Assembly (NCBI RefSeq): GCF_042242105.1
Contig: NC_092012.1
Coordinates: 5,564,470-5,628,469 of the forward strand
Direction: 5' to 3'
Origin: Pempheris klunzingeri
Taxonomy: Eukaryota > Chordata > Actinopteri > Acropomatiformes > Pempheridae
Length of the DNA: 64,000 nucleotides
Part shown: positions 18,701 through 63,098 of the stretch, piece by piece
Numbering within the stretch: the first letter of the stretch is position 1
Layout: each line of letters starts with the position of its first letter
The notes under the pieces: generated by a model
Told to the model about the DNA's origin: nothing
What the model saw: only the letters and a program-made list of their open reading frames with translations
Database searches by the model: none
Translations under genes and position numbers: made by a program

Positions 18701-21679
18701 TGCTGTTCTCTAACAAGAAGCTTAACAGCAACATTCACAACAGGTTTGATCCATGAATCCACCAATACATTTCCTGCTTCAGTTAGAATTGGTATTTAAA
18801 CAGTCCTCCTCATCCTGCTGTTCACATTCTGACATCAGGAGACCAAGACGACACCTAACAGTTGATCAGCAGCACCTCAACACTGGAGGCTTCAAACAGG
18901 AAGTCCTCAGACGGAGGTGTTCACTGAGCTTAGAGGGTCACAGAGTGTCATCAGGAGGTTGTAACAGTGATACAGAGACTGGAAGAGTCACAGAAAGGAG
19001 AGGAGTGGACGTCCTTTGGCCACATCCCAACTTATTGAGACACTGAAATGTTTTGTTGTGGTATACCCACCACTGTGGTTAGCTTTTCTTTCAATAAATT
19101 GTTTAAGATGAATAAAATCACCAGTGCATGCTTCTACTTAAATGCCCTACTTTCATGATATAATATCACTGTAGCATTCACTTTTTACATTTTCCATAAA
19201 TTTCACCTGAAAGTCAAATATCCCTAACTTTTTGTAAGTAGTGTATATAAAAAGGTATATATAGCGTATATACAAGTTTAAAATGGGTTGTAAATTAACG
19301 TCAGACAGCGTGTAGATATATGATGTCATATATCACTCAGGATTGTGAGGAATGAATTAACTGTAATTTGCATGTTTATGTGTTATGAACTAAGCTAATA
19401 AACCAGGTGCCTTATTGTTGCAATTCAACAAGACAGCTATATTATTAACAATTGAGGCGTTGTCTCAGATATCAAGATGCCACTTGATTAGGATACCACT
19501 ACAATGGTTCTCTGTCATACCGCCACAGACTCTCTTTCACTCCCTCCCTCCCCCTCCCCATCCCACACACACACACATACACACTCACTCACACGAGATG
19601 TGGGTACCAGTGAACCAGAATCGCGTGTCTCATTTATGAATGGCTCTAGTCCTCTTACATAATCAGGCCGTCCTCTCTATCAAGTCCACTTCACTGAGAC
19701 AAAGTTTGTGAATGAGAGCGGCAGCCGAGGCTAACGGGCCCCTTTGCCTTATTGGATATTCTGAATCATTTTGCATGCGTAATCCAAAAATAAAACCCGT
19801 CTGACGCGTTTCCAATTTTAGCAGGGCACTGGGAGATCAAAGGCAACTTCAGCAAGCATCCTCAAAACATTCGGGCGTCTCTTCACACAGCAGCCTGATG
19901 CGACTGTGACTGCACACGTTGGAAAAAGGCCACTCAGAATTTTTGTTTTGAGTCTAGACTGATAAAAATGATGAAGTACTGAGGAGACAAGTAATGTAAA
20001 AAGATAGACACATTAAATCACTTAGACTGAGAAATATACCCTGCAAATGCATGAAAAATGTACCCCTAAAGTGACTGTTTCCTCTGACCATGTAATGTAA
20101 TCTAAAAAGACTGGTTCTGGTTCATTTTCAACATGAAAATGACTGAAATGCTTACATGAATTCTCATTCAGAGAACTTGTTATACCTGTGGTCTATCTGC
20201 ATTTTGTACAAAGACATGAACTTTGAACACCAGACGTGTTAACACTGAACCAATCGCAGCAGTCTGTTCAAACTTCAAGGTTCAGTCAGCGAGCAGGCTG
20301 GACAGATGGACAGCATTCAGTCTGATTTGATAATCCCCTCGAGCCATAATCCAGTCACAAGATTTACTACACTTTACACCCGATGACAAAAGGCTGATCA
20401 TTCCCAGCCCATTCTTTATTTCTGCTGAGGAGTACTGCTGGTTGACTGGACACTTTACAAAAGTGTGAACGATTACACAGCCGGGGAAAAGTTATTGTGC
20501 AAGACAGCTGTGACACAGAGCAACACTGTGCAATCTAATGCAATCCAATCAATCAATCATCTCTGCTTAGAAATTCTACCTTTACGAACGTTAGGTTAGA
20601 AATGTGTACATTCAACCCTATGTCTATTTCTAAAGTCACAAATTTAAGTCGTAACAAATGCATAACTACTTCCTCTCATAGAATAAAGTAAAAAAAAACA
20701 AATAAGGAAAAAAGTCAGAGACCTGACAAAGAGAAAAACGCTACAGTAGCACTGAAAATTGTAGATATGAATATACATATTACAGGCCTTCATTGATCAA
20801 TGGGGCAGATGCTGTTTGCTGTTGCTATATAAATAACAAAAACACTAAATCAACGTATTATTGCCAAATTCAACTTGAGTCCACAGTAAGGTTGTTACAA
20901 GATGAGCAGATACATCACCTCCTGTGGAACAATGATTCTGGATGTGGTTGGAGATACAACAGACTACAGCTTTCAGCCAGAAGAGGTCAGTGAACAGTGT
21001 TTTCAATACCTGCTGTTCACCAGCTCTTTCACAATAAGAGAATACAACACATTAAGGTTGGATCAAATAGGAGATAAAAGTGATGAAATTAGAGGGCGTC
21101 GAATATAATAACCAGTTAAACGTTGAACTGTCACTCCTGTGAGTTCTGTGGAGTAGACACTGAAACTATTTGCTGTTTTTTTTCTTACATGGATCCATAT
21201 TCAGAGAAACAATGGCTGATTTTATATGAGACAGACATATTTACTTTAGTTGAACAATACTACTAATACTGTTAATACTAAAGAGAATTTGTTTTGTTCA
21301 AGTTGATCATCTGCACATGAAACATGACCATGAAAGTCCTGTTATATTACTATTAATACTAACGAACAATTACATAGCTGGAAATAATATTTATCTTTAT
21401 TTGATCAATGAAAACATACCCTATCTTTGAAAGAATATGGTTTAACAGAAACTTAAATGACATAGAACAGAAATGTTATTGTCCCCCATACAGTTTCTCA
21501 CCTGCCCATTTCCCCAGTTTGTTGGGGGACACCAGCCGTCCGTTGCCCAGCACCCACACCCTGATCCCGGCCAGCAGCCGGCACACGGAGCTCACAGACA
21601 GCCAGGCCGCGGTCAGAGCACCGAGCCAGAAGAGCGGCGTCTCCGCGGCCTTCAACACTGCTTCTCCGCTGGACGACAT
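3792..21679 (-). CDS. hsd17b12a: hsd17b12a: very-long-chain 3-oxoacyl-CoA reductase (17-beta-HSD 12), 11 coding exons, 319 aa
   Basis: Coding exons in order: 21502-21679, 14058-14104, 12661-12736, 11792-11899, 11402-11466, 10750-10794, 9878-9912, 8446-8527, 7636-7701, 7310-7459, 3792-3899. All junctions are GT-AG and the lengths sum to 320 codons including the stop. The enzyme is an ER-membrane short-chain dehydrogenase that performs the NADPH-dependent second step of the fatty acid elongation cycle; the mammalian protein can also reduce estrone. Visible features: an N-terminal hydrophobic segment (about residues 16-37), the cofactor motif TGATDGIG (62-69), NNVG (138-141), Ser195 and the Y-x-x-x-K pair Tyr208/Lys212 in YSASK. 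The C-terminus LKKQKQG fits a dilysine (KxKxx) ER retrieval signal. The 319-aa length and the ending [18 protein letters not shown] match what I recall of zebrafish Hsd17b12a, hence the 'a' paralogue. The ATG at 21679 was chosen because no earlier in-frame ATG exists in the exon. No damage is seen; the enzyme should be functional. Confidence 0.95.
5399..6580 (-). mobile_element. Decayed Tc1/mariner-type DNA transposon in hsd17b12a intron 10
   Basis: The left end begins CAGTGCTGGTGGAAAA. The right end, read on the opposite strand, begins CAGTGCTGAGGGAAAA, so short terminal inverted repeats bound about 1.18 kb. The right flank is TA, the usual Tc1 target; the left flank is CA, presumably mutated. 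The minus strand retains transposase pieces: a helix-turn-helix-like stretch ([20 protein letters not shown], about 6180-6250), then [36 protein letters not shown] and SIIIWGCC, as in Tc1 transposases. The pieces fall in two overlapping frames (about 6078-6299 and 5723-6190), so there is at least one frameshift. The catalytic Asp of the DETK-type motif reads Asn, and no intact C-terminal catalytic half follows. It is an inactive fossil. Confidence 0.8.
5723..6299 (-). pseudogene. Tc1-like transposase remnant, frameshifted
   Basis: Two overlapping minus-strand frames carry the DNA-binding part (6078-6299) and the front of the DDE domain (5723-6190). The conserved DETK signature appears as NETK and the frame ends soon after AIIERKLNL, so the distal catalytic residues are missing or scrambled. 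The product could not transpose DNA. It lies inside the inverted-repeat-bounded element at 5399-6580. Confidence 0.75.
8894..8917. repeat. (TA)n microsatellite in hsd17b12a intron 7
   Basis: Twelve uninterrupted TA units. This simple repeat has no visible coding or splice role; the nearest exon begins at 8527 on the minus strand. Confidence 0.95.
14335..14830 (+). mobile_element. 3' tail of an L2/Maui-type non-LTR retrotransposon
   Basis: The stretch contains the well-known fish signature: GAGGTTTCTTCCCATTAAAG, then GGGAGTTCTTCCTGCCACTG, then AAAGCGTCTTGAGATAACGC and GAATTGGCGCTCTATAAATA, followed by a terminal ATTGATTGA-type repeat. This is the usual 3' UTR and tail of teleost L2-clade elements, so it is a 5'-truncated insertion on the plus strand, opposite to the host gene. 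No reverse transcriptase coding sequence remains. The left boundary is approximate. Confidence 0.75.
15669..15693. repeat. (CAG)n trinucleotide run in hsd17b12a intron 1
   Basis: About eight uninterrupted CAG units (CTG on the transcribed minus strand). Intronic, with no coding frame of note. Confidence 0.9.
18541..19243. mobile_element. Tc1-like MITE, copy 1 (703 bp), in hsd17b12a intron 1
   Basis: The element starts CACTACTCACAAAAAG and its other end, read in reverse, is CACTACTTACAAAAAG. The inverted repeats continue through GGGATATT..CTTTC..GGTGAAAT for about 45 bp, with TA-rich flanks. The interior shows no transposase I recognise, so it is best called a non-autonomous inverted-repeat element. 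A second copy lies at 60244-60836 in the same orientation with high identity. Confidence 0.8.
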
Positions 21680-21900
21680 ACCTGCACCGCACACACCCCG
21701 AGTGTCCTTTACCTGACGACACTGACGCCTGCACTTGTAATTTCTGTATTAATGTGACAAGAAGCGCTCAAAGTGCAAATGCATGCGTCAAAAAAGGATT
21801 CTGCTTGCTGCTTCCGGGTTGGACGCTTCCGCATTAGCGCTCGTGCGCTTCTGTGATTGGCCCATTTTCTTCTTCTTTTACTGCATTTCATGATAAGACA
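21502..21900 (-). promoter_or_regulatory. hsd17b12a: hsd17b12a proximal promoter and first exon region
   Basis: Upstream of the ATG at 21679 the minus strand has an ETS-type CCGGAAG at 21813-21819 and a CCAAT box at 21856-21860, with GC-rich sequence through exon 1 and no TATA box. This fits a TATA-less housekeeping promoter, as expected for a lipid-elongation enzyme. The transcription start is probably between about 21700 and 21800; this is inferred from composition only. Confidence 0.55.
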
Positions 21901-23374
21901 GTTAATACGGCAGCACTGCCGCCTGCTGTTGTGCCACAGTCCTCTCTGTCAGGCCCGTATTTTGTAAAACTAGGACGTATGTTGTGGCATTTTGTGAAAT
22001 ATTATGTGGTTTTACAATGTTTGCGTTTCTCTTCAAGCTCCTTTTATAATAATCTTTGCTGTGATTTCATTCTGAATAATATTTCAGTGATCCAGTTTCA
22101 CCCTGCAACATTTTACAGTGAGGTTTCATGATTCATTTATCTCTGCATCCCCTGCATAATCTTACAAATGAGACGTTTCACTTTCCTCTCTTTACATACA
22201 TCTAATCTTTTTTAAATCTTAGAAATTTGACTCCTCATCACACAACCTTTGCAGCTTCATTCATTCTTTGTTTTATCTCTCATTTTCTATCTTTCTGCTT
22301 TGCCTTCATCAGGTAAAATATCTGGAATATGTATGATCACACATTTTTAACATTTATACACCTTCAACTATCAATTCTGTATCAGAGTAGAACTTAACAC
22401 TCTTTATCTCCTATTTGATTCTTCTTCTTTATTTATGTAGATTATTAGCTGCCCTTACCTTCTCCACAAGTGCTGATCCACATTTCATTTGAATTTTGAA
22501 CTGTTGTGGCTATTTATATATTCTTTGCATGTCTGTAATGAGTGTCTCTTTGATATTCAGCATTTTCAGTTCTCTCAGTGTGTTATATTTGCTCTCATCA
22601 TTGCACTATGAAACTGTATCACTACTCCTACTACACACTGCCTCTTTTACAGTACGTACAGTATGTCTCTCATTGTAGAGGCGTCATGACAAGTTTGCAT
22701 TAAGTTGTCATGCTAAACATGCAAGCTGTGTTTAGAACCCTCTGGGGAAAATACTTGACTCTTTGCATTACTGTAAGACATAGATGTTTTAGATTTTCTC
22801 ACGTTTTTGCTGCTTAAAACCAAACTACAGTATACACGCAGGCTGTAATACAACTGTTTTAATACACTCAGTGTTTTATCACGGGATAGAATGATGTCTC
22901 TACACCTAAAAGTCAGTGCCCTGTCTGATTTTACACCTTTAGTGTATTTTAATGAATTCTGTATTTGTTCTAATGGAAACTGACAGAGCAGTTTGCAAAA
23001 TTAAGCTTGTTTTCCTTCATGTTTTATTGGTTTGAATGTTTTATGGAAATACTGTGTACACTGTAGATAGTGCTCACTCACAGTGTCATGAGGAATCCAT
23101 TAACACAATAAACTCAGCCTGAGGATTTAATAAAGGGGCCAAACTGGGGGTCACAATTAGTAAAACTTTAAACAAAAACAGCCGTACGCCAGATTTTTCT
23201 TGAATTACATATTTTATGTTCAAAATATTTGTTTGATTTTATAGCTGTCACAAATATATGATGTCGCTCTATGTATGATCAATGCATTGTATGTTTTCCT
23301 TATATTTTCTTTTAGTTTCTTTTTACTTCATAGAAGTGACATGATTGAATCTAACTTAACACACACACTCATAT

Positions 23375-23378
<4 letters not shown>

Positions 23379-23430
<52 letters not shown>
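23379..23430. repeat. (AC)26 microsatellite
   Basis: Fifty-two uninterrupted bases of AC, the longest dinucleotide run in the window. Such long perfect tracts are usually highly polymorphic in fish. Confidence 0.97.
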
Positions 23431-23432
<2 letters not shown>

Positions 23433-23974
23433 AGAGGGAGCACACAATTCAGCCAAGTGGAGCAGACAGCAGTGGTCCATAATGTGAGCGTGAGCGTTAC
23501 ATAAGAGCATTGCATCTAAAAATAGAAATGCAGCAATGGTAAACAGGAGTCTAAACTGTTGGCTCTAAGCTTTCAAAGGAACCTGAATGAAATTTAGATT
23601 AAAGGGCAGTCTCGGACATAAATGGACCAGCTGCTGATCATGACCATGAGAGGCTGCAGGCGCGTATGCTCGTCCTGATGTCCACGTGTGAGTGAGGGGG
23701 AAGGAGGTGGCTGGAGAGTTGAGAAGTTGACTTGTGGCTTTGACAAAATGTACATTAACACAGTTGGATAATAACCGTGCATTAAAAAGCATATGGACAT
23801 TCCTGCTACACGGTGGACTATGGAAGTAATTCAGCACCACATGTTGATGGACAGCTCCTTATGTCAGTGTCAGAGTTCTTGTTTATTTCTGAGAACGGAC
23901 GATGTCTCAAAGATACATAAAGTTAAAGTTATCACTGTGTATAGTGAAAACAATCTGTCTGTTTCTGGAAATAA

Positions 23975-23999
23975 AACACACACACACACACACACACAC
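23975..23999. repeat. (AC)n microsatellite
   Basis: About 12 AC units in the intergenic interval. Confidence 0.95.
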
Positions 24000-25547
24000 T
24001 CAAGAAGAACACCACATTCACATAGTAATTGTTACAAATATTTAATGTACTAAACTCTGTTCTTCATGGATTTTACCAGATAATACACATTTAATTCTGT
24101 ATCTTTTTCTATTCGTCAGATTAAAAAAAAAGAAATGTATCTACATTATCCTCACAGGCTTTTATTACTTAAATGTTTATTTCCCTGAGTTATTTTACAG
24201 CAAATCATTACAAACATACACACAATTAGTTTTTTCTTTTTCCTTTAACACATGGCACTACAAATGCTGTGGTGTTATTTACTAAAACTGCACATGCAAA
24301 CTCAATAAAGACACATGACAGAATAGTTCACTCAGTTTTTTTTATTTATTTGTTATAAGCCAACATCTTATAAATGGTTAGAAACATCAATAATATTGAG
24401 ACGTACAGAAGCAAAACACACACAGCAGTTAATTGGATATCCATTCATAATGAGAGTGAATGAAGTGCATTTACCATTAACACTTTTACTCATTATTGGG
24501 ATGTAATTAAGAGATTTCCTTTAAACACATGTTTGAACAAAACAAGGGAGAAAAGACATGACAAACTAAGACAGAATGAGATCAAATGTAAAATAATATG
24601 TTGAATGAATATGAACAGACACTCACAGAGTAAAAGGTATCACACACACACCCACGTGTGAAGACCACAACTTGGAGGCACACTGGCTCCATGCACACAA
24701 CGTGCTCTCTGTGTTTTGTCTCTCTTTGTCATCTGTTGTTGAATCGAGAAAAAGACCACAAATCACTTATTCGGGGGCAAATGGGGAGTCCACATTCAAA
24801 GAAGTTCCACATCTGGAATACATTTGGTTTTGGAGCCTTAACGGGGGACGTGTGTCTGATTTTGTTCCGGTTTGAAATAGTTGGATATTTCCTTGACCCA
24901 CACAGTGTGAGAGGAAATAGTTGCAGATGTCAATTTAATTAGTGGTGTCAGGCTAAAAAAAAAACAAAAAACAGTAGGATCAACTGGTTTCCATAAGATG
25001 ATTGATGATTTTTACAAAAACATCTCTGATGAACACAAACGCAGAAACAGAACATGTGGATGGTGTCTTGCTGATGTGTATGAATCAGTGTCTCTGTGTA
25101 AGATTTCAAACAAATGAAATGAACACTGACGTGCACATTTTGTTTAATTTCAGACTGTATTTTACAGTTGATTGAAAACTCTACACACACACACCTGCAA
25201 AAGTTACGTCTCTGTCTTGGCTTTCAAATAAAGATTTAAATGTGCTCACTGTCATCACTAAATAGTGATACTAGCGTCACAGCAGAAGAAAATAAATAAA
25301 GGACAAAAAAAGACAAAGAAAAACCAGTAGATGACATTTGGAAACATTATTACCATGTCATGTTACCCAATGTTTTGGGTAACATGTTTGCAGAGGGCCT
25401 AAACATGTAAAGCACATTACAAACTGTAGGGTCCTTGAAAATAAAAATAAAAACTAATCAAAAACCGCAAATCACTCTCTGATTTACAGAGCAAGGACAA
25501 ATGTGTGTGTAGTGTCACATAAAATGTTAACCTGTAAAAACAAAAAT

Positions 25548-25552
<5 letters not shown>

Positions 25553-25588
<36 letters not shown>
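25553..25588. repeat. (CA)18 microsatellite
   Basis: Thirty-six bases of uninterrupted CA in the intergenic interval. Confidence 0.95.
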
Positions 25589-25591
<3 letters not shown>

Positions 25592-25810
25592 CCTTCACTA
25601 ACTGGATGTAAAGTCTGTGCATTTGTGTGTAACGTCTGAATTCCTTTCATTTCTCTAAAATAGGAATTGTATTGGTCACAGATTTTTGTAAAGACTGGTT
25701 GTCCTTCAATGACATATTCTATTGACTATTTCTGTCTCTTTACTGTATTATTGTCACCATCCTCACACCTCGATGAATAGAGAACTACAGAAATGGACAG
25801 TTGTCTGACC

Positions 25811-25835
25811 TGTGTGTGTGTGTGTGTGTGTGTGT
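25811..25835. repeat. (TG)n microsatellite
   Basis: About 12 TG units, in opposite phase to the CA tract 220 bp to its left. Confidence 0.95.
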
Positions 25836-26636
25836 CCTGACCTTAGTGTAATTGTTACTACTTCTCCTTTAAGCAGGTGAGCTGATCAAAAAGATAGCCT
25901 GGAGAGGAAACCGCAGCAACTTTGTGAGCTGAAGGGAGAGGAAGCTGGGGGGTCATCACTTTCTCATGGGCATACGTGAGACCCCAGGACCACCAGATTG
26001 GGGCCCCTAAATCAGAAATCCTGTATGTATTTCAGAGTGCAGATTTAAAAGGGGGTCAAGCCATTGTCACATTAAGAAAGAGTACGTTTGTAAAAACCAA
26101 AGGAAAAGCTTCAGGTCTAGTTCTGATCTGGACCAACACCACGCAACAATCTGGACATTTAACAAGTGAACACTATGATTTTCACAAGGCAGCGTGGCCG
26201 GGATTAAAGTTCCACACGGTGCTGCCAGCTGAAGTGTTTGCACATTGATTGATATTATGAACGTTTGATAGTCGACACAATGTCGTGTTGTGACAACTTC
26301 TCCTTGCTTTAGTGCTGAGCCTGAATAGTAACAAACAAACTTCCCGTCATGGCTGCTGACTATCGGGATTTGGGCTCATTCTTAGCTTGCAAAATAAGTG
26401 AATGCCCTTTTTCTTTATTGCAGATAATACTGCTAAGCAAGCCTGCTATCATCAGTGGAAAAAGAAGAAGAGATTGTGCAGACATAAGGAATTCATTTTT
26501 GTAAAACACGGTGATTAATAACAATAACAATGATATTATAATAAAAAAAAATGATAATAATAAAAAGAGGAAGAAGAAGAGGAAGAGGAAAAAGGAGACA
26601 ATTTTAAATCTCAGGGTGACGCATAAGATGTAAAAA

Positions 26637-26642
<6 letters not shown>

Positions 26643-26669
<27 letters not shown>
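26643..26669. repeat. (GT)n microsatellite
   Basis: About 13 GT units, followed by a broken GGGTGTGTGT continuation. Confidence 0.95.
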
Positions 26670-27774
26670 AGGGTGTGTGTGCTGCATAAGCATGTGAACA
26701 GCAGCTGTCATTGACTATGATGACAAACTATACAAACTACACTTTACATCCCTGTGACAGTCTTTCCACACTCACTCTGTGGATTCCACCTGCTGACCTC
26801 GCGGTGGTTTGGTTCACTGCTGCCGTCTCCCGGCCCGGTGTTTGTGTGTGTGAGGTCTGAATCTGTGAGTTGTTGAAAAGGCAGAAACAACAAAAGTAAA
26901 ACTATGAGCAAACATATTATCAGAGTACAGGGAACGCAGGGGAAAGTGATTTGTGTTCACACTGGCACTGTCCATGCTGAGTGTAACATGACATGCAGAT
27001 GACACTCGAAACTTTAAGAACATCCATATATTATTTTCTATTTATAATCTATATAATAGGAATCTCTGCACTTCCTCCCATCTTGCATTTGAGTGTCGTT
27101 TGGGTTCACGGAAGCAAGAAACGCATTTTCAAAAAGCAAACTATTCAAAATGCAAGAACATTTCAAAGTGGCGTGAGCCACCAACGTTTCAGTGATTTTT
27201 AGTACATCATTTCCAATAAGACGTCTATGCAGAAAGGCCAGAATCCTGATTTAAAAGTAGGAAATGTAGGTGACTCAAACAAGCATTGAATGTGTGACAT
27301 TGTGTGACAAATGCCTTGATAACAGTTAATGTATACATTACTAAAAGCAGACCCCCCCCACCCCACAGTGGATTCATCTTCTTCTCCCTGACAGCTGCCT
27401 GTCCAGCATTCACTCTTTGTCCCCCACGTTTAGTCAGCAGAAACGTTAACAGTCAAAACAACATGTTGCTAAAATAAAAGCTTCGTCTGAGGAACACGTC
27501 TACGTTCTCATTAATAAGAAAACTGCAGCAGCCTATAAACACATCACATCATGTCCACAGAGCAAATGATGGTGGCGATGGAACTGTGATGCAGAGTGAT
27601 TAATCAATAAAGAAGAAAAAAAAACAATTGAGGAAAATAACAAAGACATTAATTCATGAAAAGTCCTCCACATCTGTTTCTGTTTCAAACATGTTTATTT
27701 ATAGCTACAGAAACCAACATTGTGCATAATTAGGCTCATCACAAGCAACACCAAACAATCCAAGGACTGGTGAG

Positions 27775-27778
<4 letters not shown>

Positions 27779-27822
<44 letters not shown>
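27779..27822. repeat. (TG)22 microsatellite
   Basis: Forty-four bases of TG about 300 bp from the mir-129-2 hairpin, on its 3' side with respect to the miRNA strand. Confidence 0.97.
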
Positions 27823-27825
<3 letters not shown>

Positions 27826-27905
27826 AGGTGCAAGACAGCACTCTATTTTTATTTATTTTTTCCTTTTTGACCTGTGGCCTCTCACTTCACGGTGTGTCAC
27901 AGTCT

Positions 27906-27945
27906 GGGGAGGGAGGGGAGGGAAGAGGAGGGGGGGGGGGGGGGG
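27906..27945 (+). repeat. G-rich tract ending in a 16-G homopolymer
   Basis: The plus strand has several G runs separated by single A residues, then 16 consecutive G (27930-27945). The arrangement satisfies a G-quadruplex-type pattern on the plus strand, or a C-rich run in the minus-strand miRNA transcript. The exact homopolymer length is the kind of number sequencing can get wrong. Confidence 0.85.
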
Positions 27946-28043
27946 TGATGGGGGTGCAAGTGATCGATATCGAAATCCATTCAAATGTGTAACATGACAA
28001 CAGAGCACGGTGTCATCAGTGTGCTGTGCTGAGAGCTCGGGTC

Positions 28044-28070
28044 CCAGAGCAGAGCAGAGCAGAGCAGAGG
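28044..28070. repeat. (AGAGC)n pentanucleotide repeat
   Basis: Five tandem AGAGC units on the plus strand (GCTCT in the minus-strand transcript), about 36 bp beyond the mir-129-2 hairpin on its 3' side. Confidence 0.9.
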
Positions 28071-28105
28071 CACGGAGCCCCCTCTTCAGACGTGAGCGAC
28101 GTTCA

Positions 28106-28192
28106 TATCCCCCACAAATGCTTTTTGGGGTAAGGGCTTCCCAGATTCGTGTATGCACAGCAAGCCCAGACCGCAAAAAGATTCGTGACGGA
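28106..28192 (-). ncRNA. mir129-2: mir-129-2 microRNA precursor hairpin
   Basis: On the minus strand, 28160-28180 reads CTTTTTGCGGTCTGGGCTTG plus a final C, identical to miR-129-5p as I know it. The other arm, 28118-28139, begins AAGCCCTTACCCCAAAAAGC and ends AT, identical to miR-129-2-3p. A 20-nt terminal loop separates the arms, and flanks such as CACGAAT and ATTTGTG can extend the stem, giving a typical pre-miRNA of about 87 nt. miR-129 is a nervous-system-enriched miRNA in vertebrates. In human, MIR129-2 lies between TTC17 and HSD17B12 on their strand; here the same order and strand hold. The 3p sequence identifies the -2 locus. It sits in a GC-rich block and is presumably cut from a longer minus-strand primary transcript. 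Confidence 0.97.
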
Positions 28193-28224
28193 CAACTGCC
28201 TCAGCTCCAAAATCCACATCCCCT

Positions 28225-28256
28225 CCAGTCCGGTCCAGTCCAGTCCAGTCCAGTCC
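28225..28256. repeat. (CCAGT)n pentanucleotide repeat
   Basis: A tandem run of CCAGT units with one CCGGT variant, about 33 bp from the mir-129-2 hairpin on its 5' side, and therefore inside the expected primary transcript. Confidence 0.9.
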
Positions 28257-29874
28257 ACGACTCCTCGGGCTCTTCATCCTCAAAGTGTTTCCACATCAAA
28301 CACCTTGTGCACCAGGGTGGTGTGTTTTTTTTTTTTGTTGTTTTTTTGTGCACACTAACGACTATTACGGCTATGTGGTGTCTCGCCCGCCCAAGATGTA
28401 GCTACCCAAAGTGAAACCCGCTGGATTGGCATTGCTTTGCAGCAACACGCAGCCTTATTATTAAAAAGAGCGGCGATGAGGAGAGGCGGCATCTCTTTGC
28501 CGTTTTAGACTTTAACGCGCAGCAGAGGGATGGCCGCGATCTGATTGGACAGGACGGCTCGTCATCTGCCAATGGGGACGCGAAGGAAAAGAGCACCTAA
28601 GCAGGAGGCCGAAGCACCTGACAGTTTCATTACTCCCCCCTCGCCATTCAGCACGGACACTACTGCGACATTAAGCCCTAAAAATAACCAGCAGCGGTCC
28701 TCTCAGAGGGAAATGCACGAGGCACCATATGGTGATTTGATGCGTGGTTTCCTATTCGTGGATCCTTCTCACACCGGAGATGACAAAACACCGATCAGTG
28801 CCCCCACTTTCATTAATAGTAAAGTTTCCTTTATTTGCAAAGGGTTAATTTGGCTCCAAACCTCCAGCTGCCGAAGCAGGGGCCCCACCCTCGCTCCGTT
28901 TTCATTGGGCCATCCAGCCTTTCATTCGTGGACGCGTCTCCCAGCCGGTCACGATTCCCCCCATCTGTCTCGAGCGCACCGGAGCCAGACGCCACTGACG
29001 CAGCACGCGCCTTACTCACTTTTAGCAGTCACGACTCGAGACTCATCGCGCACAAAAGGGGGGGAAAAAAAAAATATATCTGCAAATAAGGATCAAATTG
29101 TGATCACACCGCTGCGTGCGAGGCGGGCTCTCCTCGCCCCTTCTGCTCCTCCTGCGTAAAATAAAAAGACATCTGAGGCGAGGACAGAGGTTTGCGCGTT
29201 TAAAACGGTGAAAAAATGAAAGAGCGAGCGTCGGGAGCGAGATCTCCTAAAAGCCTGGAGCCTTTTGTGTGAAATCTGGTGCATGGGACTTATCAGAAAT
29301 ACCCACAGTGGTCTTGTGGGCACGCTCCGTGGAAAAGAGCAAAACCCAGGCTTAAAACACTTCAGCACCACAAGCCAGAGGACAGCTCCCCCACTCACTC
29401 CACATTCATCTCCAACTCCAAACCCCCCCTCCACCCTCCCTCCCCAACAAGAACATCTCAGCTTTTCATCGGCCCCTAACTGAGAACACCATGAACTAAC
29501 AAACAGCAGGATAAAAATGATGGAGCCCACTACAGCACACCGACAGACGCATCCACCCTTTTTTAAAAAAAAAAAAAAAATCACAACTGAGGGGTGATCC
29601 CCGGTTTGAAATCCCCTTCAAGCATGGTGCAAAAAAAATAAAAAAAAATACCCAGCAGAAATCCACACAAAACACTCGTGACATGGCGTTTCTCCGCGCA
29701 CACCAAACCCGCCTTAATCAAACAATCACATTTGCCACAGCCCTGCGTTTTGCAGTGGCACCAATGAAAGAAAAGAAAAAGAACAAGAAAAGAAAAGCAG
29801 AAGAAGAAGAAGAAGCATACATGTCTAGGAGAAAAAGAAAAGAAAACAGGTGCAGATGGAGAAAGGTTTTCACA

Positions 29875-29881
29875 ACTCACC
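29875..29881 (-). other. Candidate 5' splice donor of the mir-129-2 host transcript
   Basis: The minus strand reads ACACCG then GTGAGTTGTG, with the exon ending at 29881 and the intron starting at 29880. GTGAGT is a strong donor. It is about 135 nt downstream of the start site predicted from the TATA box at 30041-30048, so it could end a first exon of a spliced primary miRNA transcript. No acceptor has been assigned. Confidence 0.35.
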
Positions 29882-30040
29882 GGTGTAGCTGCGGAGCCTC
29901 CTTTCAACAAAAAAAAAAAAAAAAAGAAAGAAAGTAGCACCAAGAGAAGAGAGGGACATAAAAGCCTGTTTCTCCATAAAATAAGCTCTGGCTTTGCGCT
30001 TCTTCAAACTGTGCACACACTGTACTCTTGAATGGTGTGC

Positions 30041-30048
30041 CTTTTATA
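30041..30048 (-). promoter_or_regulatory. TATA box, candidate mir-129-2 primary transcript promoter
   Basis: The minus strand reads CCTATAAAAGGCAC, with TATAAAAG at these positions, an excellent TATA match in a GC-rich setting. A start near 30015 would place the mir-129-2 hairpin about 1.8 kb downstream. No protein-coding gene on this strand could otherwise use it. Confidence 0.5.
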
Positions 30049-30330
30049 GGAGTGATGCCCCCTATCTATTTCTGGATCACGATCCAACCCCGTTTCTATT
30101 TTTAGCTCGCGCGTGATGAAAAAAGAAAAGCTCGCAGAGGTTCCTTGGAGGAATTTCGAGCGTGCAGCGTTTGAGAGCCGGCGCGAGCTCCCTGCACGAG
30201 AAATGCGCGTGCACGCTCGGCATCTCCCTAATAACGGTGCCGTGGAAAGCTGCACGCCCGGATTTCAACGGAATCATGGAAGTGTGCAGAATTCGGCTTT
30301 TATTAATTCATGGTTTGCTGCTGAAAGCAC

Positions 30331-30331
<1 letters not shown>

Positions 30332-30367
<36 letters not shown>
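30332..30367. repeat. (GT)18 microsatellite
   Basis: Thirty-six bases of GT between the two candidate mir-129-2 promoters. Confidence 0.95.
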
Positions 30368-30370
<3 letters not shown>

Positions 30371-30520
30371 CTCGCCATCCTTTCCCTTCCTTTCTCTTCC
30401 CTTTTGCGCGCACAGACGCCCCCACCCTATCAAATTAGAAAAAAAATCGGGACTGAAACGCGCACACAAACCCTCATTTTCTACCTCACTGGCAGATGGC
30501 ATTATTTTTACGCGGTCTGA

Positions 30521-30604
30521 TTTATATTTAACCCCCCCAAAAGAAATGGGAGAATAAAATAGACTCTCTCCTCCTGGGGGCTGCGTCAGTCACTATTGAC
30601 GTCA
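30521..30604 (-). promoter_or_regulatory. CRE plus TATA-like element, second candidate mir-129-2 promoter
   Basis: A perfect palindromic cAMP response element TGACGTCA lies at 30597-30604. About 70 bp downstream on the minus strand is TAAATATAAA (30521-30530), a TATA-like sequence. CRE above TATA is a common arrangement in activity-regulated neuronal promoters, which would suit miR-129. The CRE itself is symmetric, so direction rests on the TATA-like box. Confidence 0.4.
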
Positions 30605-31996
30605 GGTGGAGAATCTCCCACTTTGAAGGTGGAAGCAGGAGCCTCCTGTGCTGTGGCGAAAAAACCGGCGGAGGTCCAATGAAACATCCGCCGAAAACGC
30701 ACAATGGCAGAGGATAGGCTCGGGAAGGCGCAGCCTCCTCCTCCTCCTCCTCCAAACTGGAAAGGCCATTGTTTGCTGGCTGTAGTCAAACCTCTCTTTC
30801 ATGTCACTGGGAGCAAAAGGAGGAGCCTACAACACACAAATGAAATGGTGAGTAAACTGTGAGCTTCCAACCGGCCATCGTGACACAAACCAACACCAGG
30901 CGTCGGATAAAAGCGCTTCTTTGACGCATCCTTATTTCTAATCAGTATAAGGCCCGTGGAGGTGGTGAGGATGACTCCAGGTTGGGTTTGCCCTCCGGCA
31001 GACCCACAAGTGGCCCCTCAGTGTGGTGGTGCAGAGCTACACGGGAAGGTGGAAGGCTCATTACAGGCTGCCGCGGTCTCAGTCCTGCAGACTCCCCCCT
31101 GCACAGGGCAGAATGCTGAAACGCGTAGTAACGGAGCGGCGCTTGGCCGACCGATGATGCTATTTTTAACTCCCATACTCAAAATGCCTGGCGCTGCGGG
31201 TTTCTCTGCTCAGGGTAGCTTACTACTGTACGAGAGGCAAAACATAAACACGGGACAGCTTCCAGGCGGAAAAAAAAACGGGCTGGATTCTGGTTTCCCG
31301 GCACGAAAATACAACTGGAGAGGAAAATAATCCTCCTCCGTGAGATTATTTATCTTTTATCAATGCATCTCTTTAAAGAATGAACCAGGCTCATTCTTTA
31401 AAGCTGCAACCTGTAGGATTTCCACGGCGTTACATTTACAGGAGACTACACTTTCTGTGTCTGTGTGTTTTATTTAGACACCTTCTGATGCCTGAGTGCA
31501 TTGATTATGATGTGGTTTTGATTTAGGTTTGTCTTTTTTTTTTACATGTAGGCTTTGTAAGCGCAAACATGATTCATCCTCAAGAGAAACAATCAGGCAT
31601 ATGTCTAATATCACACACATCACACACACCAGTGGGATCCCTGGTGTGATGTGTATGATAAACACTTAAAAGGTAAACTGGGTGATGTTCTCTGGAAAAG
31701 AAAAGTCACAGTGGACAGACTTTTAGGTCGCTTGTCTAGTAGTAAGTCATCCCATCTTGGTTTTCCTCTCTGGAATCATGCAAGTCATTCATAGAAGGCA
31801 GTGGCTTGTAATGACTGGGCTGTTTTTTTTTTTTTTTTGGATTATGTTCTTATTCATTTGGCAGCGTCACTGGTGGAAAGCATCCACGGTGTTCACAGGT
31901 GTTCAGGGCAGCTTTTTTCCTTTAACGTGAACCTTTAGTCCACCAAATGCTGCGAGGCCGACTGTCACTGATGTGGCTCGCACTGCAGATAACTTC

Positions 31997-32019
31997 CACA
32001 CACACACACACACACACAC
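31997..32019. repeat. (CA)n microsatellite
   Basis: About 11 CA units in the interval between the mir-129-2 block and ttc17. Confidence 0.93.
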
Positions 32020-34568
32020 TGTCCTCTGTTTAAAAGTATGGTATCCAGCCACAGCTTTTTAAGAGCCGATGGTTAATCTGACGAGTTTCCCTGGAGCCGT
32101 TCCAGGATCACAGCACCGAATGAGGAGCAAACAAACAGGTGCTGCTGCACCGTAGGGCCGACTGCTGGATTCACCCTGAGAGACAAACTACAGCACAATG
32201 AAGACAGGGTGTGTGATCACAGAGGTCTTCTGTAGAAACACCTGAAGCTACTGACGCAAGGTTACCTCGCAGCTCTCGCACAAGACTGACAATGGAAGAC
32301 TTAAAAGAAGGGTGTGGTCTCAAACTACCTTGAGAGACTAAAGGCTCGAGTGCCAGACTTCAGGTGTGGACTTGTCCTCACGACTAGATGCAAGCAGAGG
32401 CAGGATTTCCTCACGATGTTGCAGTTCTATCATTGTGTGTCATTAACGACACACACATTTTACACAGCATTTCTATCAATTTGATAGAATGTTTTTTTAG
32501 TTTTGTAAATGGAATACGTTTTGTTTTATGACTCCTGTAATTGGATTTGGAAGCTGAGTGTAAATATTTCAGTTTTAATTGAGATGCACAAAAACAAGTG
32601 TTGGAGCAGGCGGCTCGAATTTACTAAAAGGTGAATGTCCACAAAGTGTCCCAATGAAGGGGAAGTGTAAGAATAAAAGGAAAAACCCTAATGGGAGTGG
32701 TCTGTTCCGGGAAGTCAGAGACCCCAGAATGCATTGCTCAGTATGAAATCATGTGAATCATATGCTACGGCCCTCTATGTCACCAGAGCACCTCAGGGAG
32801 ATGTTTGAGTTTCAGACAGCGCTCTCCGTCAAGGTGCACTGAAGATGTTCTGGAACTGCCCAACATCTTTCTGAGACATCTTATGTTGATTTTCCCTTTT
32901 GTAATGAGCAGGTCTGTAACTCTAATGCTCCACGCTGAGGAGGTAGTGTGGCGGCGTTCCTTTAGAGCTGTCCGTGGTACTAAAGCAAGAGTGAAGCAGT
33001 AAACACAGTCCAGACAGAGCTCAGATTAAGCTTAAATTGGCCACAGATTATTCTATAGTGCATTAGCTTCCTCTAGTAAACCACAGAGTAGCACAGAGTA
33101 ATCAAGTTCAGGACGGAAGAGGACAGGGATGCAAAAAAGAGGAGACTTTGGTGTTAATGGCAGCCCCCACAGGGCCGGTACATTTTTATTACACTGAAAT
33201 AGAGAGAAACACCCAGAAAATCCCTTGTGGAGACGGCCTAGCAGAACAGAATGCCTGTGCTATGAATGTGTGGTGGACTAGTGCAGTATTTAGATGAGTT
33301 CTAGCCCAAACTTAAAGACCGAAAGGTGGAGAAAAAAACTGATCTTCGCTGCCACTTCATTTTACGGACTTTCAGGCTCACGTCTTCAACCTCCAAAACC
33401 CAGATGAGAACTTGCCTGAGACTGTGAATTTTACTAGAATGTGTTCACATGCAAACTAAACATGTTTACAAGTAATATAAGAACTCACATGTACGTATTA
33501 AAACACTCATATGGCCAATTAACTGCTGCTAAAGCCAACTGCAAGTCCACATGTTCCACCGCCCATTATTATATATAAATGATCAACTCTGCTTCTACTG
33601 TGTGTTTACAGTATATCGTGTTTTCTCCTTACAGTTAAATACTGTTTTATTTGTTGAAGCAACATTTTTTTTCCGTCTCAAAATCAGGTCCAGTCTCATC
33701 CTGCTTGCACCAACTGAGACGTCAATGTCTAACGTCAGATGATAACATGACACGCGACCGTTCGCAAGTCTACACCACAAATGAGAGCAGCCTCATTCAA
33801 ACAGAGCGGCGTTCTGTCCCCGTGTGTCGAAGTCTCCATCCACTCTTAGTCTGCGTCTTTAAAATAGTCGTCTCCTTTCAAGTCCGTGTAGGAAACTCAC
33901 TGTTATTATGTAATATCTAGCAGCAACATCCATTCAGTGTTACTATATTCAGCAGCGCTGAGCCAAACATGTCTACACACTGAGAGGTGCGGTAACACAT
34001 TTCACTGTGGACATGGGCATCAGAGGTTTTTTGCATCCGAACAAATGAAAAGCTCAAAGCGTTGGTCTTATAGTCCTCAACCCAAAATGACTTGTCAGCA
34101 TATATTTAGCAGCACATAAATACAGAGCTGTAAAAAAAAAAAAAAACGTTGATGATCCTACCAGCCCAGAGTGCTGCAGAAAAAAAGACAAAAACACACG
34201 ATTATCAGATGAGCAGAGTGCCTCACTTATTATACATTAGAAATAACAGCTCGACATTAACAGCGATACCAATATTATGTACTTCAACTACTACAGTGAA
34301 ATACATGGATAGGTTAAGTTCACAAGTGTGGATACAGTTCGTTTGTCAAGATGAAAATGTTTTTTTAATCAATATTAAACATCCTCTACTGCTAATCTAT
34401 ATATGTATGCATATACTTAAAGAAACTGTATTATTTTAAGGCACAAAAGGTGCATGTAAGTTAGTATTTCACTAATGCAATAATGAAATTAGCCGCCTCA
34501 GCTGCAGCAGACTTAACAAAGGACCAGTGAGTATACTATCACTCTGAAAACACTCAATGGGTACATCT

Positions 34569-34591
34569 CACACACACACACACACACACAC
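34569..34591. repeat. (CA)n microsatellite
   Basis: About 11 CA units in the interval between the mir-129-2 block and ttc17. Confidence 0.93.
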
Positions 34592-36704
34592 CCATTCAAT
34601 GCAGTGTCTCTGTGGTGTGCCAACTCACATGCCTATTACATAACAGGGCTCCTACTCCCAGGCCTAACGCCCCTGACAAATCCATGCACGCTTTACTGCA
34701 CATGAGCTATTTATATACCGCACCCAAGACAGGGCTGGTCAAAAATACCACTCCAGTCAATTATTCATTGAGAAACATTCCAAAACAGAGCGGGGAGTGG
34801 GTTCGGCTGCACAGGAATAGACCAAGGGGCTAACAATAAATATGTCCATTAGCAATGCAGTTGCCTGTTTGCCCTCAGTGGTAGAGAATCTGAGGGAGAG
34901 GAGCGGGAAATGCGTAGCTGCAAATTTGCCCTCTCATGTGTTGTGCTTGTATTTATAGGAGTGTGTGCATACACTTCAGCTCCTCTGCAACCATCTTGTT
35001 CCTTCACAGGATTCTAAAAATAGCAGGCCGCGCTGTGCTTGTGCCATTTTTAGGTCTGGCAATTTAAAGAGAAAAAAAAAAAAAGGCAGCAGAAAAAAAA
35101 AAGTGCTGTTTCACAAGGATATTACAGTACGTGAATGCACTTTTTGTGTGAATGGACACACCTTTGCTCTGCGCTGCATCTGCAGCAGCACTTTCAAACA
35201 GTCAGGTTATAATTTATGTCTCCTATATTTATTGCTTTACACCATCTTTGAAGTTAAGTATTTTGCTTTGTGAAGTGCTACAATAATTATCATGACTGTG
35301 TCGGGGTAAGGAACTACGAAGCTTCTGATTTTTTTTATTAATTTGCTTCCAACTGCAACAAGATAAACAGCTGTCGCCATCACAGTTTGAAAATGACTTC
35401 TACGTGGATTGCAATGCAATAGCATGTACTTTAAATGAATGTTTCTAGAGAGTTGACTGGAGGTTGTAAAAAGCAGATATGCGCTGAAGTGTGTAAAATG
35501 TTCTTATGGACGGAAAAACAGAAAAATAAAAGGAAAGAATCGCTGAAAACGTCATTTTCTGATTGTGTTGCTGCCATTTTCAAAACTTGTCACCACACCA
35601 GCGACATGCCAGTGGAGTGGCATAACTCAACAAAAACTTATTTGACGTGAAACATACATTAAGCCTTTGAATAGTTCATTCACCTCTCCGCCACATTTTA
35701 GAGATATTAGAAAGTGTGTTTGACAGGTGTGAGTTGTAGCTATTTGTTCCAAAAAATGTATTTCACACCTTCAAGTCAAACTCTTCAGGTCTCTCACTGC
35801 TTTAAAGTGTCTAAACTGTAGACTATGGTGTGATGATCCACGAGGGTCTTACTCTTAATGAGCCTGTCTTCACATTTGCTGGACTGCTTCAGTAATGTTC
35901 ACTCACTGCCTGGTTTCACCAGGTGCAACCTGCAGTTTCTTAAATCTGTCCTACTTTCAATATTTATCCAAGCAGAGTGTTGTTTCATCTGTCAATACAA
36001 TATGCATCACTGCCAGTGCAGCTTTTCATTAAGTGGCTGAAGGCTGATTCATTATTATTGTGTTAAGTAGCTGGTGACTGGTGCAGAGCACAAAATGTAC
36101 TCACTCAAAGAACGGTGAATTGGTTCGATTTCTTTATAAATAGCATTAAGAATGACACTACTTTGCTGGACTGATGACGCTCATTAATGTCTGAACTGGT
36201 CTACAAAGGAGTTATGTGACACTAGTGTGCTGTATGTGAAAGAAGAACAGGTATAATTAAATAGAAATTGAATATTATAATTCCTAACTGAATGTTTAAT
36301 ATACTCTGATGCCATATAATGTAGAACATAGACATCACATTGGAAGATTGTGTAATTTCATCCTCCAGTCAGATAGAAAAGATTGTAGGAGTTGATAAAA
36401 AAGGAGTTTACCTAAAAAGGTTGGACAGCGCCACCATTAGGCCCGTTTTTAAATGTTTCCTAGAAAAAGGTTGCAGTCATGCTTTTGGTAGCAGTTCTCG
36501 ATCAAGGATTCATTAAGTGTGGCTGGAAAGTGTTAATGGTGAGATGCTACAACTTTTAGTTTAACTTAAGCTTTGAGGCGTCCAAACGGGTGTTATTATT
36601 TCCAAAAGAGACCGAAGAATTGACACAGAGAAATGGACTAATGAAATCCACACACTGCCTTTAATACTGTACATTTAATACAGATTCCACTTCAAGAGGT
36701 TTTT

Positions 36705-36714
36705 TTTATTTATT
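36705..36714 (-). terminator. ttc17: Tandem poly(A) signal of ttc17
   Basis: The minus strand reads AATAAATAAA, two overlapping poly(A) signals about 800 nt after the ttc17 stop codon at 37516. Cleavage near 36685 would give a 3' UTR of about 830 nt. Alternative downstream signals cannot be excluded. Confidence 0.5.
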
Positions 36715-37515
36715 TCTTTTTTTTTTTATAGATGGTCAATGGCAAATCCTTTTTCTGCCGTATAATTCCCATAACTTAAGAAGCAAATGTAATAGCATAT
36801 TTCAGTTTCTCTCTTTTGTGTTTAAATTATCTTGGAGCAAAATCAAACAGTTCGTAGGTCCCCTATAAATAGGAATGATATAGAAAAAAAGTGCAAAAAC
36901 TGAGAATTCCCATCCATTTTATGAAGCAGAAATAGCGAAGGCATATATTGTCCAATTCAAACTCCTTTAACCTCTGAGTTGAGAGACACATTCCCGACCA
37001 TCTCAGCAAAAGACTTAACAAATACTGTATAACATCCATTCCTTTTGGAATTTCCAATTAAGTTACATTAAAACATGGCGCCATCTCCAGGCTGTAGCAT
37101 GTTATTGTCCTCCTGGATGCCACCTCCCTCATACCAAAACACTAAAATGTCTCCAAGAAAGACAAGGTGAGCTATTCTTCCAATTAGCACAGACTGAAAA
37201 CAAAACATCGAAGAAGAATTAATTGGAACTTCACAGCCTCGTACGATGTTTTCCCTCTGTGAAGCAAACCTAGAGAAAACTGGTAGCCATAACTTCTTGA
37301 TTGTTAGAGGATAAGCTTTGGGGCAAAAATTATCTACAGTTGTATTTTGTAATTCTTTGGGGAGTTCGATCTCAAAGAGAAAAAGAATCCGGACATCTGT
37401 GGTGGTCAGATGAGTGTGTGTCTGTGTGTGAGTGTGCATGTGTCTGTCTGTGTGTGTTTTATCTGGTGTGTGTATTATTGCGGGGTGTCTCCTGGGTTCC
37501 AGCTGCTTCAGTGGC

Positions 37516-40500
37516 TTAGGGCTGACGGCGTTCCCTCTTGGTGAGCAGGTAACACTGGATGGTTCTCAGTCGATCTTTAGCGGGGGCGAACTCTGGCTGC
37601 AGCTTCAAGGTAGACTCGTACCAGCGCATGGCTTTCTCGAACTCCTCCTGTTGTCAAGAAACACAACCACGTCGCCATGAGGACATGACTTGCATCACTG
37701 CTTGACAAATGCACTGAACAGTGGGTCATTAACAGGGAAGCGAACAGTAACCGAAAGCTTAACTGTAGCCGTTACCATAGCTATGTATACGTTGGCGAGG
37801 GTAAAGTGGTTCACGACAAAGTGCGGGGCAATCTCTACTGCCATTCGGGCGACTGTGAGAGCGTCCTCCCATAGCCGTGCGTTCTGGAAGATGTTGGCCA
37901 GGCTGATGAGGGGCACGTCCTGGTTCACAAGGTACAAGGGAGAAAAAAACCAGAACATTGTTTTTTTTTTCATGTTTAAAACAACCGTTTAATCAGCGGT
38001 GGATTAAGCACTGGGAACACTTGATGTCTAACTTGCCTTCATGTGATGAGGGGCGTAGTTGAGGGCCTGTCGCAGGCAGTCGATGGCTCTCTTGCCTTGA
38101 CCTTTCACCCTCCAGTACAGTGCAGCCATGCTAGATAACACCCACGATGTCTGGTTCTGCAGTTTCAGGGGTTAAATGTACAATTGTGTTAGGTGTTAAA
38201 ATAGCTGGGTGTTACTACTAATAATAATTTATGCACAGCAATGGCACTTTCTTGAAATAATTTCCTGCAGACCTACAATTACTATAATTTACAGCAACAA
38301 AGTGCAAATAACGTGCTTCTATTTCAGAGAACACACCGTACATTTCTTCTGGGCCACAAACAAACTTGTTGGGCTAGGTAATGCTACACAAGGAGCCATG
38401 AAACTGAGCAGTCTTCTGCGCCTCTTGCTTCCAAAGAGACACTGAAACGTTTGAATGTGGAATCCTGCCTTTGCTAGTTGGCATTTCGCTGGTTTCCTTT
38501 GCTAATGTCCTTTGTCTGGTCTTAATGTTTCTCTTTAACCAGGAGGAAGTGGGAGCTCTTACCTTCTCCAGCACTTTAGCGATGCGTGTGCCCACCTGCT
38601 CAAAGGACTGAGGGGAGAACTTATCTTTGCCAAGGTTCTGCAGGACCTGGGGGTTAGGACAAGAAGAGACATAGCTGTGCTGATTATTTAATAACAGTCT
38701 GACTATCATCTATGTCGGTGTGTAATTATAGTTTGCCACTTGAGAGTTTCAATACATTAGGACTGACCTTGAACATGTTGCATGCTCTTTCAATCAAACT
38801 ATGATTGTCTTGGCCGTTAAACCTTGTTTAGATTCAGACGATAACTACTGTATGACCCCGCTGGACTTAGTCTCTGACTTTTTGGGTACCCATCACAAGT
38901 TCTTACCCTCCTGAAATTTGAATTCTTCACACTAGTTTGCATAAAGCTTCATATAATACATGTTTTATGGAAGTTCATCTGTGGAACTGAAACTCATGAG
39001 AGGAGAATGTTGAATATTCTCACACTGTCATTGTGCTGGTCGATGTTTTTAAGCTCCTACTTTTTTAAGTTAATTCTGGTAATCTGTGGCTTCTGCCTCA
39101 GCCTACCTCACGCAGTTGGCTCTCTCCAGTGTAGTGGATGGCGGCACGATTGGCCACCCCAGCCAGGTGGTCGAGGGTGTGCATGCTGGCAGCTAGGTTG
39201 GCGTTGCATAAAGGCTCAGCAGCTGGCTCCTGGAGGGGAGTGGCAAAGTCTATGTGCTCGGTGATACTGAAGAGAGACAGTGAAGGGAAAATAGAAAGTT
39301 AAACATAGAAGACTAAAAATTGTATCTACTGAGTTTTGGTTGTTGATGCGCTGTGATGCAGGAACATCAATCTCCTGTTCCTGTTTTTTTGTTTCTTAAC
39401 ACTCAACAGGTATTTAATAAAAACACTCCACACATTTCAAAGATGTTAAAAGCTTTGTGGATATTGATTTTCACATGTATAACTTTAGAGAACACATTAG
39501 AGCAAGCAGTCCCAAATCTGACAGCATACATGGTCAGTGTTTCAGTACCAGCTGAATTCAGTGATATAATCATATCATTTTTTTAAAACTCTTTGAAACT
39601 GACTATTATAACATGAGATGAAAACGTGGCCATGATCAGGACAGTGAGAGTCTTACTCAATGTTCTTGGCAGAAACAGCCAACCAGGTACTAGCGACAGT
39701 GGTGAGGTCTACCCTTCGTGTCCGCTGGCACTCCTCTGGTCCTGGCCAGCCAAGACTTGTGTAGTCCCTCCAGCGGCCTGCCCAAAACACAAAAACCAAA
39801 GACGTCTCTCTCAGCTGGGTGAATTCCAGCCCCTCATTTTTTTTGTCTGTGTTCATGTTGGTGCAAGTAAATGAAACGCAAGTGTATGTGATACCTGAAG
39901 GGCCAGGCGAGGGTATAGTTGGCCCGCTTATCTCCAACACAGAGTGTCCTCCAGGCAGTGACTCCCCATTCTGGTTGTCATCAGAGATTGTAACGCTCTC
40001 TGTCCCGTCCACTTTAGCCTTCCTGACCCGCTTTACCTGGAAGGTGATCTGATGAACAACAACAAAAACCATTCATAGTCTTAGTCTGGTTAAACACACT
40101 TCAGTCACATCAGTCCAACACAGATCTACTAGAGTTTGGCGATGATGACTCAAACATAATCCTGTTTGTGTGAAAAAGGACAGGCAAGTACACTCACCCA
40201 CTCCGCCCCCTCGTCATCCTCACAGTTCCCGAAGCAGGGCCCACCGCCAGCACGGGCACCCATGACACGGTCATTCTTTAGCACCCGGATACCTCGCAAG
40301 TCTCCCCGTTTGCCTCCGACATCCAGCGCTCCCTCAAAAGCTCCCATCAGGTCCTCCTTCAGCTGCCACTCCTCCTCCCCTTCCACTGCTCCACCTCCAA
40401 ACGGGGTGGCCATTTTAGCTGCTCCAGAGGCAGAGGGAGAAGCCCTCTGCTGTCCAGCTGCCTCACCTGACCCATTACTGTCCAAGACGACCTCTAAAGA

Positions 40501-53305: not shown

Positions 53306-54327
53306 GTGAGTACTATATAAGAACAATATCTGCTTCAAACTCAGTATGTTAGTGCAATTGTTGCCGATGAGGACGAGCGTCTGGTGCCTGCGCTTGTGGT
53401 CAGTATCTTTCTTTTAATCGCTTCTGAGTAGCATAAGTTGCAGTTCCGCATCCAGGGGCATGACTGGTCCATCAAGTACATCCAACATATGCAGGGAATT
53501 ACCTATAAATGTTATGCGATTTAATGATCAGCGACCTGTTAGCTAAGGGATCTCTTCAATTGTGGTTTGGGTCTTGTTGATTCATGTTGATTGTGAAAAC
53601 AAATGACTTAACGTTAAACTTTACATCCCATCGAGCAATAGGTGTAGAGGGTAGTAAAATATAAGTTATATTTAAGTAGAACTTATATATAGAATATAAA
53701 TGCTGTTGTCTCCTACTATCAGTGGGATGGCTGTTGTGATTACAGACTCGACATTAAAATCACGTGTTAAGCTGAGATTTCCAGACATTCTGCAGCTCCA
53801 GATTCTCAATTGTGAGGATTTTCTGCATTTATTTGACTTATATGATAGTAAACTGTATGTCTTTGGGTTTGGTCAGACAAAACAAGCCACCTGAAGACGT
53901 CACTTTGGCCTGTAGGAAATTGTGATTGACTTCTTTTTTAATCAAGTACTTGGAAAAACTAATCAACTGATTATTCAGCGATGAAAGTATCTTGTAGTGT
54001 GAGCACTAAAGCATTCCCATTGGGATGTTGTCAGCAGCACTATAAACTAACTATGATGTGTACTATCGTGCACATACCATTCATTATAATATCTTATTGT
54101 AGAGAACAATACAGTAACATCTCTGGTGTTAAAGGAGTTAGTGAGTCTGTGGATCGGGGCTGTTACAGAACCCGGCTGTCCTTGTAAAGAAATTGAAAAG
54201 ATGGTTGGTGGAAGGGAGGGAGTTTAAAAAGATGGTTACTTGACTGACGAGAGTTCTGTAGAATCATGCGTCACTCTTCTGTAGCATAACACTGTTTCGT
54301 TTGCCCATTTTGTTTCACTTTCCACAG

Positions 54328-60035: not shown

Positions 60036-63098
<3,063 letters not shown>

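Follow-up and report, generated by a model that had tools for sequence, protein, structure and literature searches.

A well-preserved mir-129-2 locus and its adjoining CpG-rich block in the interval from ttc17 to hsd17b12

The vertebrate microRNA loci mir-129-1 and mir-129-2 differ at the end of the 3p arm, which for mir-129-1 is GUAU in both human (PMC11231994) and zebrafish (PMC3258298). Human MIR129-2 maps to 11p11.2 (PMC11231994). The 3p arm of zebrafish dre-mir-129-2 appears in a brain table with counts of 7747 and 10824 under unlabelled columns (PMC3258298), and a review tabulates brain expression of miR-129-3p in zebrafish (PMC4159003). Mouse neural progenitors and cortical neurons express both miR-129-5p and -3p (PMC6433925), and a mouse retina count table contains both strings, with the GCAU string labelled 5p there (PMC8913133). 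At the human loci, a CpG island was described near the MIR129-2 promoter and not near the MIR129-1 promoter (PMC3576298). Over a wider region, three CpG islands are given for hsa-mir-129-2 and two for hsa-mir-129-1 (PMC3123655), and the CpG contrast between the two loci is thus not a clean one. The same study predicts that 29 miRNA genes or clusters are under long-range developmental regulation, including hsa-mir-129-2 and also hsa-mir-129-1. It describes hsa-mir-129-2 as intergenic with a bivalent promoter in hES, mES and MEF, and its data for this miRNA name no alternative protein target (PMC3123655).

Here, we analyzed a stretch of DNA of 64,000 nucleotides (the window) that carries a mir-129-2 precursor hairpin, lower stem included, on the minus strand at 28106-28192. 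The 87-nt sequence folds into a single hairpin with a minimum free energy of -39.6 kcal/mol, and none of 200 dinucleotide shuffles folded as well (mean -22.8, sd 3.3, z -5.02). A chance hairpin can draw on the finding that 6 of 4262 87-nt tiles, taken every 30 nt along both strands of the whole window, reach an equal or better energy. Energy alone is therefore not diagnostic, and the identity of the hairpin rests on its Rfam match and its mature strings. When 4227 Rfam families were scanned against the whole window, RF00486 (mir-129) matched at 28115-28186 (minus strand) with 82.9 bits and an E value of 2.8e-16. The match covers model positions 1-75 of 75 and lies above the curated gathering cutoff of 48.6 bits, which places the hairpin in the mir-129 family; the sole gap relative to the consensus is three loop bases. 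This full-length match, together with the two exact mature strings described below, refutes a chance origin, whose probability we regard as negligible.

RF00486 gave the sole gathering-level RNA match in the window, and no second RNA gene was found at that level among the Rfam families. Eight matches were listed at E values up to 1. Besides the hairpin, these comprised an RF00486 match at the same place on the opposite strand (36.4 bits against the cutoff of 48.6, E 0.00095), which we interpret as a mirror image produced by the hairpin, and six weak matches (four to SCARNA7, best E 0.013; one each to mir-3149 and sn1185) that were attributed to chance, each being far below its family cutoff. 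The window contained no tRNAs. A search of 21700-37000 for inverted repeats of at least 18 bases, no more than 60 apart, returned none; the hairpin itself is missing from that result, presumably because its stem is interrupted. Pentanucleotide arrays occur close on either side of the hairpin, with CAGAG repeated 5 times at 28045-28069 and TCCAG repeated 6.8 times at 28224-28257 (plus strand).

The mature arms distinguish mir-129-2 from mir-129-1. The 5p arm (21 nt, 28160-28180, minus strand) is identical to the published hsa-miR-129-5p (PMC11231994). The 3p arm (22 nt, 28118-28139, minus strand) ends in GCAU and is identical to both hsa-miR-129-2-3p (PMC11231994) and dre-mir-129-2-3p (PMC3258298), and a zebra finch table of assayed sequences holds the same 5p and miR-129-2-3p pair (PMC3118218). 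Each string occurs once in the whole window (both strands), whereas the mir-129-1 form of the 3p arm, ending in GUAU, occurs on neither strand of the window. We thus rejected a mir-129-1 identity. The initial annotation had named this locus mir-129-2, reporting exact minus-strand matches to both mature arms and a stem that pairs through its flanks. Its hairpin and arm coordinates are right, the fold bears out the pairing, and the family match, the exact strings and the GCAU end together support the name.

Drosha recognition features include a basal UG, a UGU and a CNNC motif, and the locus carries all three. The UG is located at 28193-28194 (minus strand), at -14/-13 of the 5p arm; the loop of the hairpin begins with UGU; and a CNNC motif (CGTC) at 28098-28101 (minus strand) starts 17 nt past the 3p arm. 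In the predicted duplex, the 3' overhang measures 2 nt at the loop end; at the Drosha end it measures 3 nt (two pairs and a bulged base) instead of 2. Both arms thus lie in one stem with short 3' overhangs, as in a canonical animal miRNA. The intact arms, stem and Drosha motifs, with three loop bases as the only Rfam gap, argue against the idea that the locus is a duplicate of mir-129-2 whose expression has been lost while a working copy persists elsewhere in the genome. Teleosts do carry both hsd17b12a and hsd17b12b from genome duplication (PMC9141715), so the genome of a teleost source could contain a second mir-129-2 copy, and yet we consider a silent duplicate very improbable.

The protein-coding neighbors of the hairpin were located by tblastn with human HSD17B12 and TTC17 proteins as guides. 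The coding exons of hsd17b12 occupy 3798-21679 on the minus strand and, in a teleost source, would belong to the hsd17b12b copy. They are delineated by 11 collinear matches running from 21664 down to 3798, eight of which have E values below 0.01 (weakest 0.28), and by a first exon with an ATG at 21677-21679 and a GT donor. The guide produced 16 rows; the 11 used include three weak ones (E 0.041, 0.094 and 0.28) and two that run past a stop into intron, and five non-collinear ones (E 0.65 to 7.7) were discarded. Ten chosen frames were scanned against Pfam and four matched at E up to 0.01 (adh_short, RING, TRAF6 zinc finger 2 and, below its cutoff, a Tc3-type transposase helix). The adh_short domain was found in one of three hsd17b12 frames scanned; the other two had no match. 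The transposase match is weak (5726-6190) and belongs to a likely Tc1/mariner-type remnant at 5726-6335 (minus strand) between two hsd17b12 exons, the rest of which was recognized by eye.

On the other side of the hairpin, the last coding frame of ttc17 (37516-37653, minus strand) is open to its stop and matches the human C-terminus at 71% over 35 aa (E 5e-16). This was the one row used of 15 produced by the TTC17 guide; among the 14 discarded, the best (E 0.018, at 48480) fell in another TPR-like frame and the others had E values of at least 0.63. We base the ttc17 name on this 35-aa stretch because none of the three ttc17 frames scanned matched Pfam and only that exon was modelled. Farther out than the ttc17 exons, the opposite strand carries traf6: frames at 54262-55825 (plus strand) contain a RING domain and a TRAF6 zinc finger 2, respectively, and later exons, judged by eye, extend to ~58.2 kb. 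A TRPM5 exon at 62616-62861 (minus strand) has TRPM5 chains as its best solved-structure matches (E 3.6e-24) and no Pfam match, and the frames adjoining it from ~61.7 kb were assigned to TRPM5 by eye.

The three genes ttc17, mir-129-2 and hsd17b12 lie in this order on the minus strand, with the miRNA 9.3 kb downstream of the ttc17 stop and 6.4 kb upstream of the hsd17b12 start codon. In human, MIR129-2 presumably sits between TTC17 and HSD17B12, and the hairpin occupies the corresponding position here as judged with the human guide proteins. The initial annotation had called this order the same as in human: the order itself is confirmed by tblastn, and its agreement with human depends on this presumed position of MIR129-2. 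The interval was also said to span 14.7 kb. From the hsd17b12 start codon (21677-21679) to the ttc17 stop codon (37516-37518) we measured 15,836 bp (15.8 kb) between the coding sequences, and the UTRs, which are absent from this measure, may account for the discrepancy. No protein gene was seen in the interval by eye among minus-strand frames of at least 45 aa and plus-strand frames up to ~24 kb. The pairing of the neighbors is itself known, as ttc17 adjoins hsd17b12 in higher vertebrates and hsd17b12b in teleosts (PMC9141715). It is by itself compatible with a fish as well as a tetrapod source; the tight gene spacing seen here hints at a ray-finned fish. A narrow literature search found no publication joining mir-129, hsd17b12 and ttc17 synteny.

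A CpG-rich block (28001-31500) extends over the hairpin and upstream of it. Of 254 scanning windows of 500 bp (step 250), 11 passed thresholds of CpG o/e > 0.6 and GC > 0.5: nine within 28001-31250, one at hsd17b12 exon 1 (21501-22000) and one at the ttc17 end. Over 3.5 kb, CpG density in the whole window peaks in a segment that starts at 27951 and has 163 CpG, compared with 84 in the best separate 3.5 kb. The block is uneven, as 29501-30000 falls under both thresholds and 31001-31500 under the GC threshold. A CpG-rich block over and upstream of the hairpin fits a promoter belonging to the miRNA itself, and we infer that the primary transcript begins within it. If mir-129-2 instead lacked its own promoter, it would be processed from a host: a long hsd17b12 transcript, with the hairpin in an intron or in the distal 5' portion, or else ttc17 read-through. 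Such an arrangement would be in keeping with three genes on one strand at the distances given above, and the CpG-rich first exon of hsd17b12 leaves a second upstream start possible. It fits poorly with the ~3.5 kb of CpG-rich sequence that covers the hairpin and the region just upstream, and human mir-129-2 is intergenic with a predicted bivalent promoter (PMC3123655); we therefore regard a host transcript as unlikely. An RE1/REST site was absent from the window at up to 3 mismatches to the motif; one simple means of confining expression to neurons was thus not seen.

The sequence, fold, family match, mature strings, neighbors and CpG block of a mir-129-2 locus are all present here. We are highly confident that the locus represents the vertebrate mir-129-2 ortholog; it would probably have its own start in the CpG block, mature by the Drosha/Dicer/Argonaute route and act mainly in nervous tissue. 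Most likely, RNA polymerase II would initiate within the upstream CpG-rich block (minus strand) and produce a non-coding primary transcript. With the basal UG and CNNC motifs as guides, Drosha would then cleave the stem at its base, and Dicer would cut at the loop. The resulting miR-129-5p and miR-129-2-3p would be loaded into Argonaute for ordinary repression of target mRNAs, with nervous tissue as the predicted main site.

The initial annotation had also proposed that mir-129-2 explains why the interval between ttc17 and hsd17b12 is kept, which is plausible. In an extended form of this idea, the miRNA, its CpG-rich promoter block and putative enhancers would constitute an element under long-range control that holds ttc17 by hsd17b12 across vertebrates, with the protein genes as bystanders. 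The long-range regulation predicted for hsa-mir-129-2 (PMC3123655) fits such a role, and we offer the extended form tentatively, rating it at somewhat under an even chance.

To the initial annotation, our analysis adds the CpG-rich block, the motifs for Drosha and a corrected length of the gap. For the window, the locus provides a firm annotation anchor in the form of a microRNA gene together with a likely promoter. It also exemplifies a microRNA that has CpG-rich sequence upstream and sits in a gene neighborhood that has been kept, and it alters no known picture. Among described systems, the human hsa-mir-129-2 at 11p11.2 has both mature strings in common with it (PMC11231994), and the CpG island near the human gene (PMC3576298) is in line with the CpG-rich block found here. 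For zebrafish dre-mir-129-2, the comparison covers the 3p string, which is identical down to its GCAU end (PMC3258298). In contrast, mir-129-1 (human 7q32.1, zebrafish chromosome 4) has an identical 5p string in human and a different 3p string, ending in GUAU (PMC11231994, PMC3258298). The locus is thus a well-preserved, ordinary copy of an already known and catalogued vertebrate brain miRNA among its usual neighbors.
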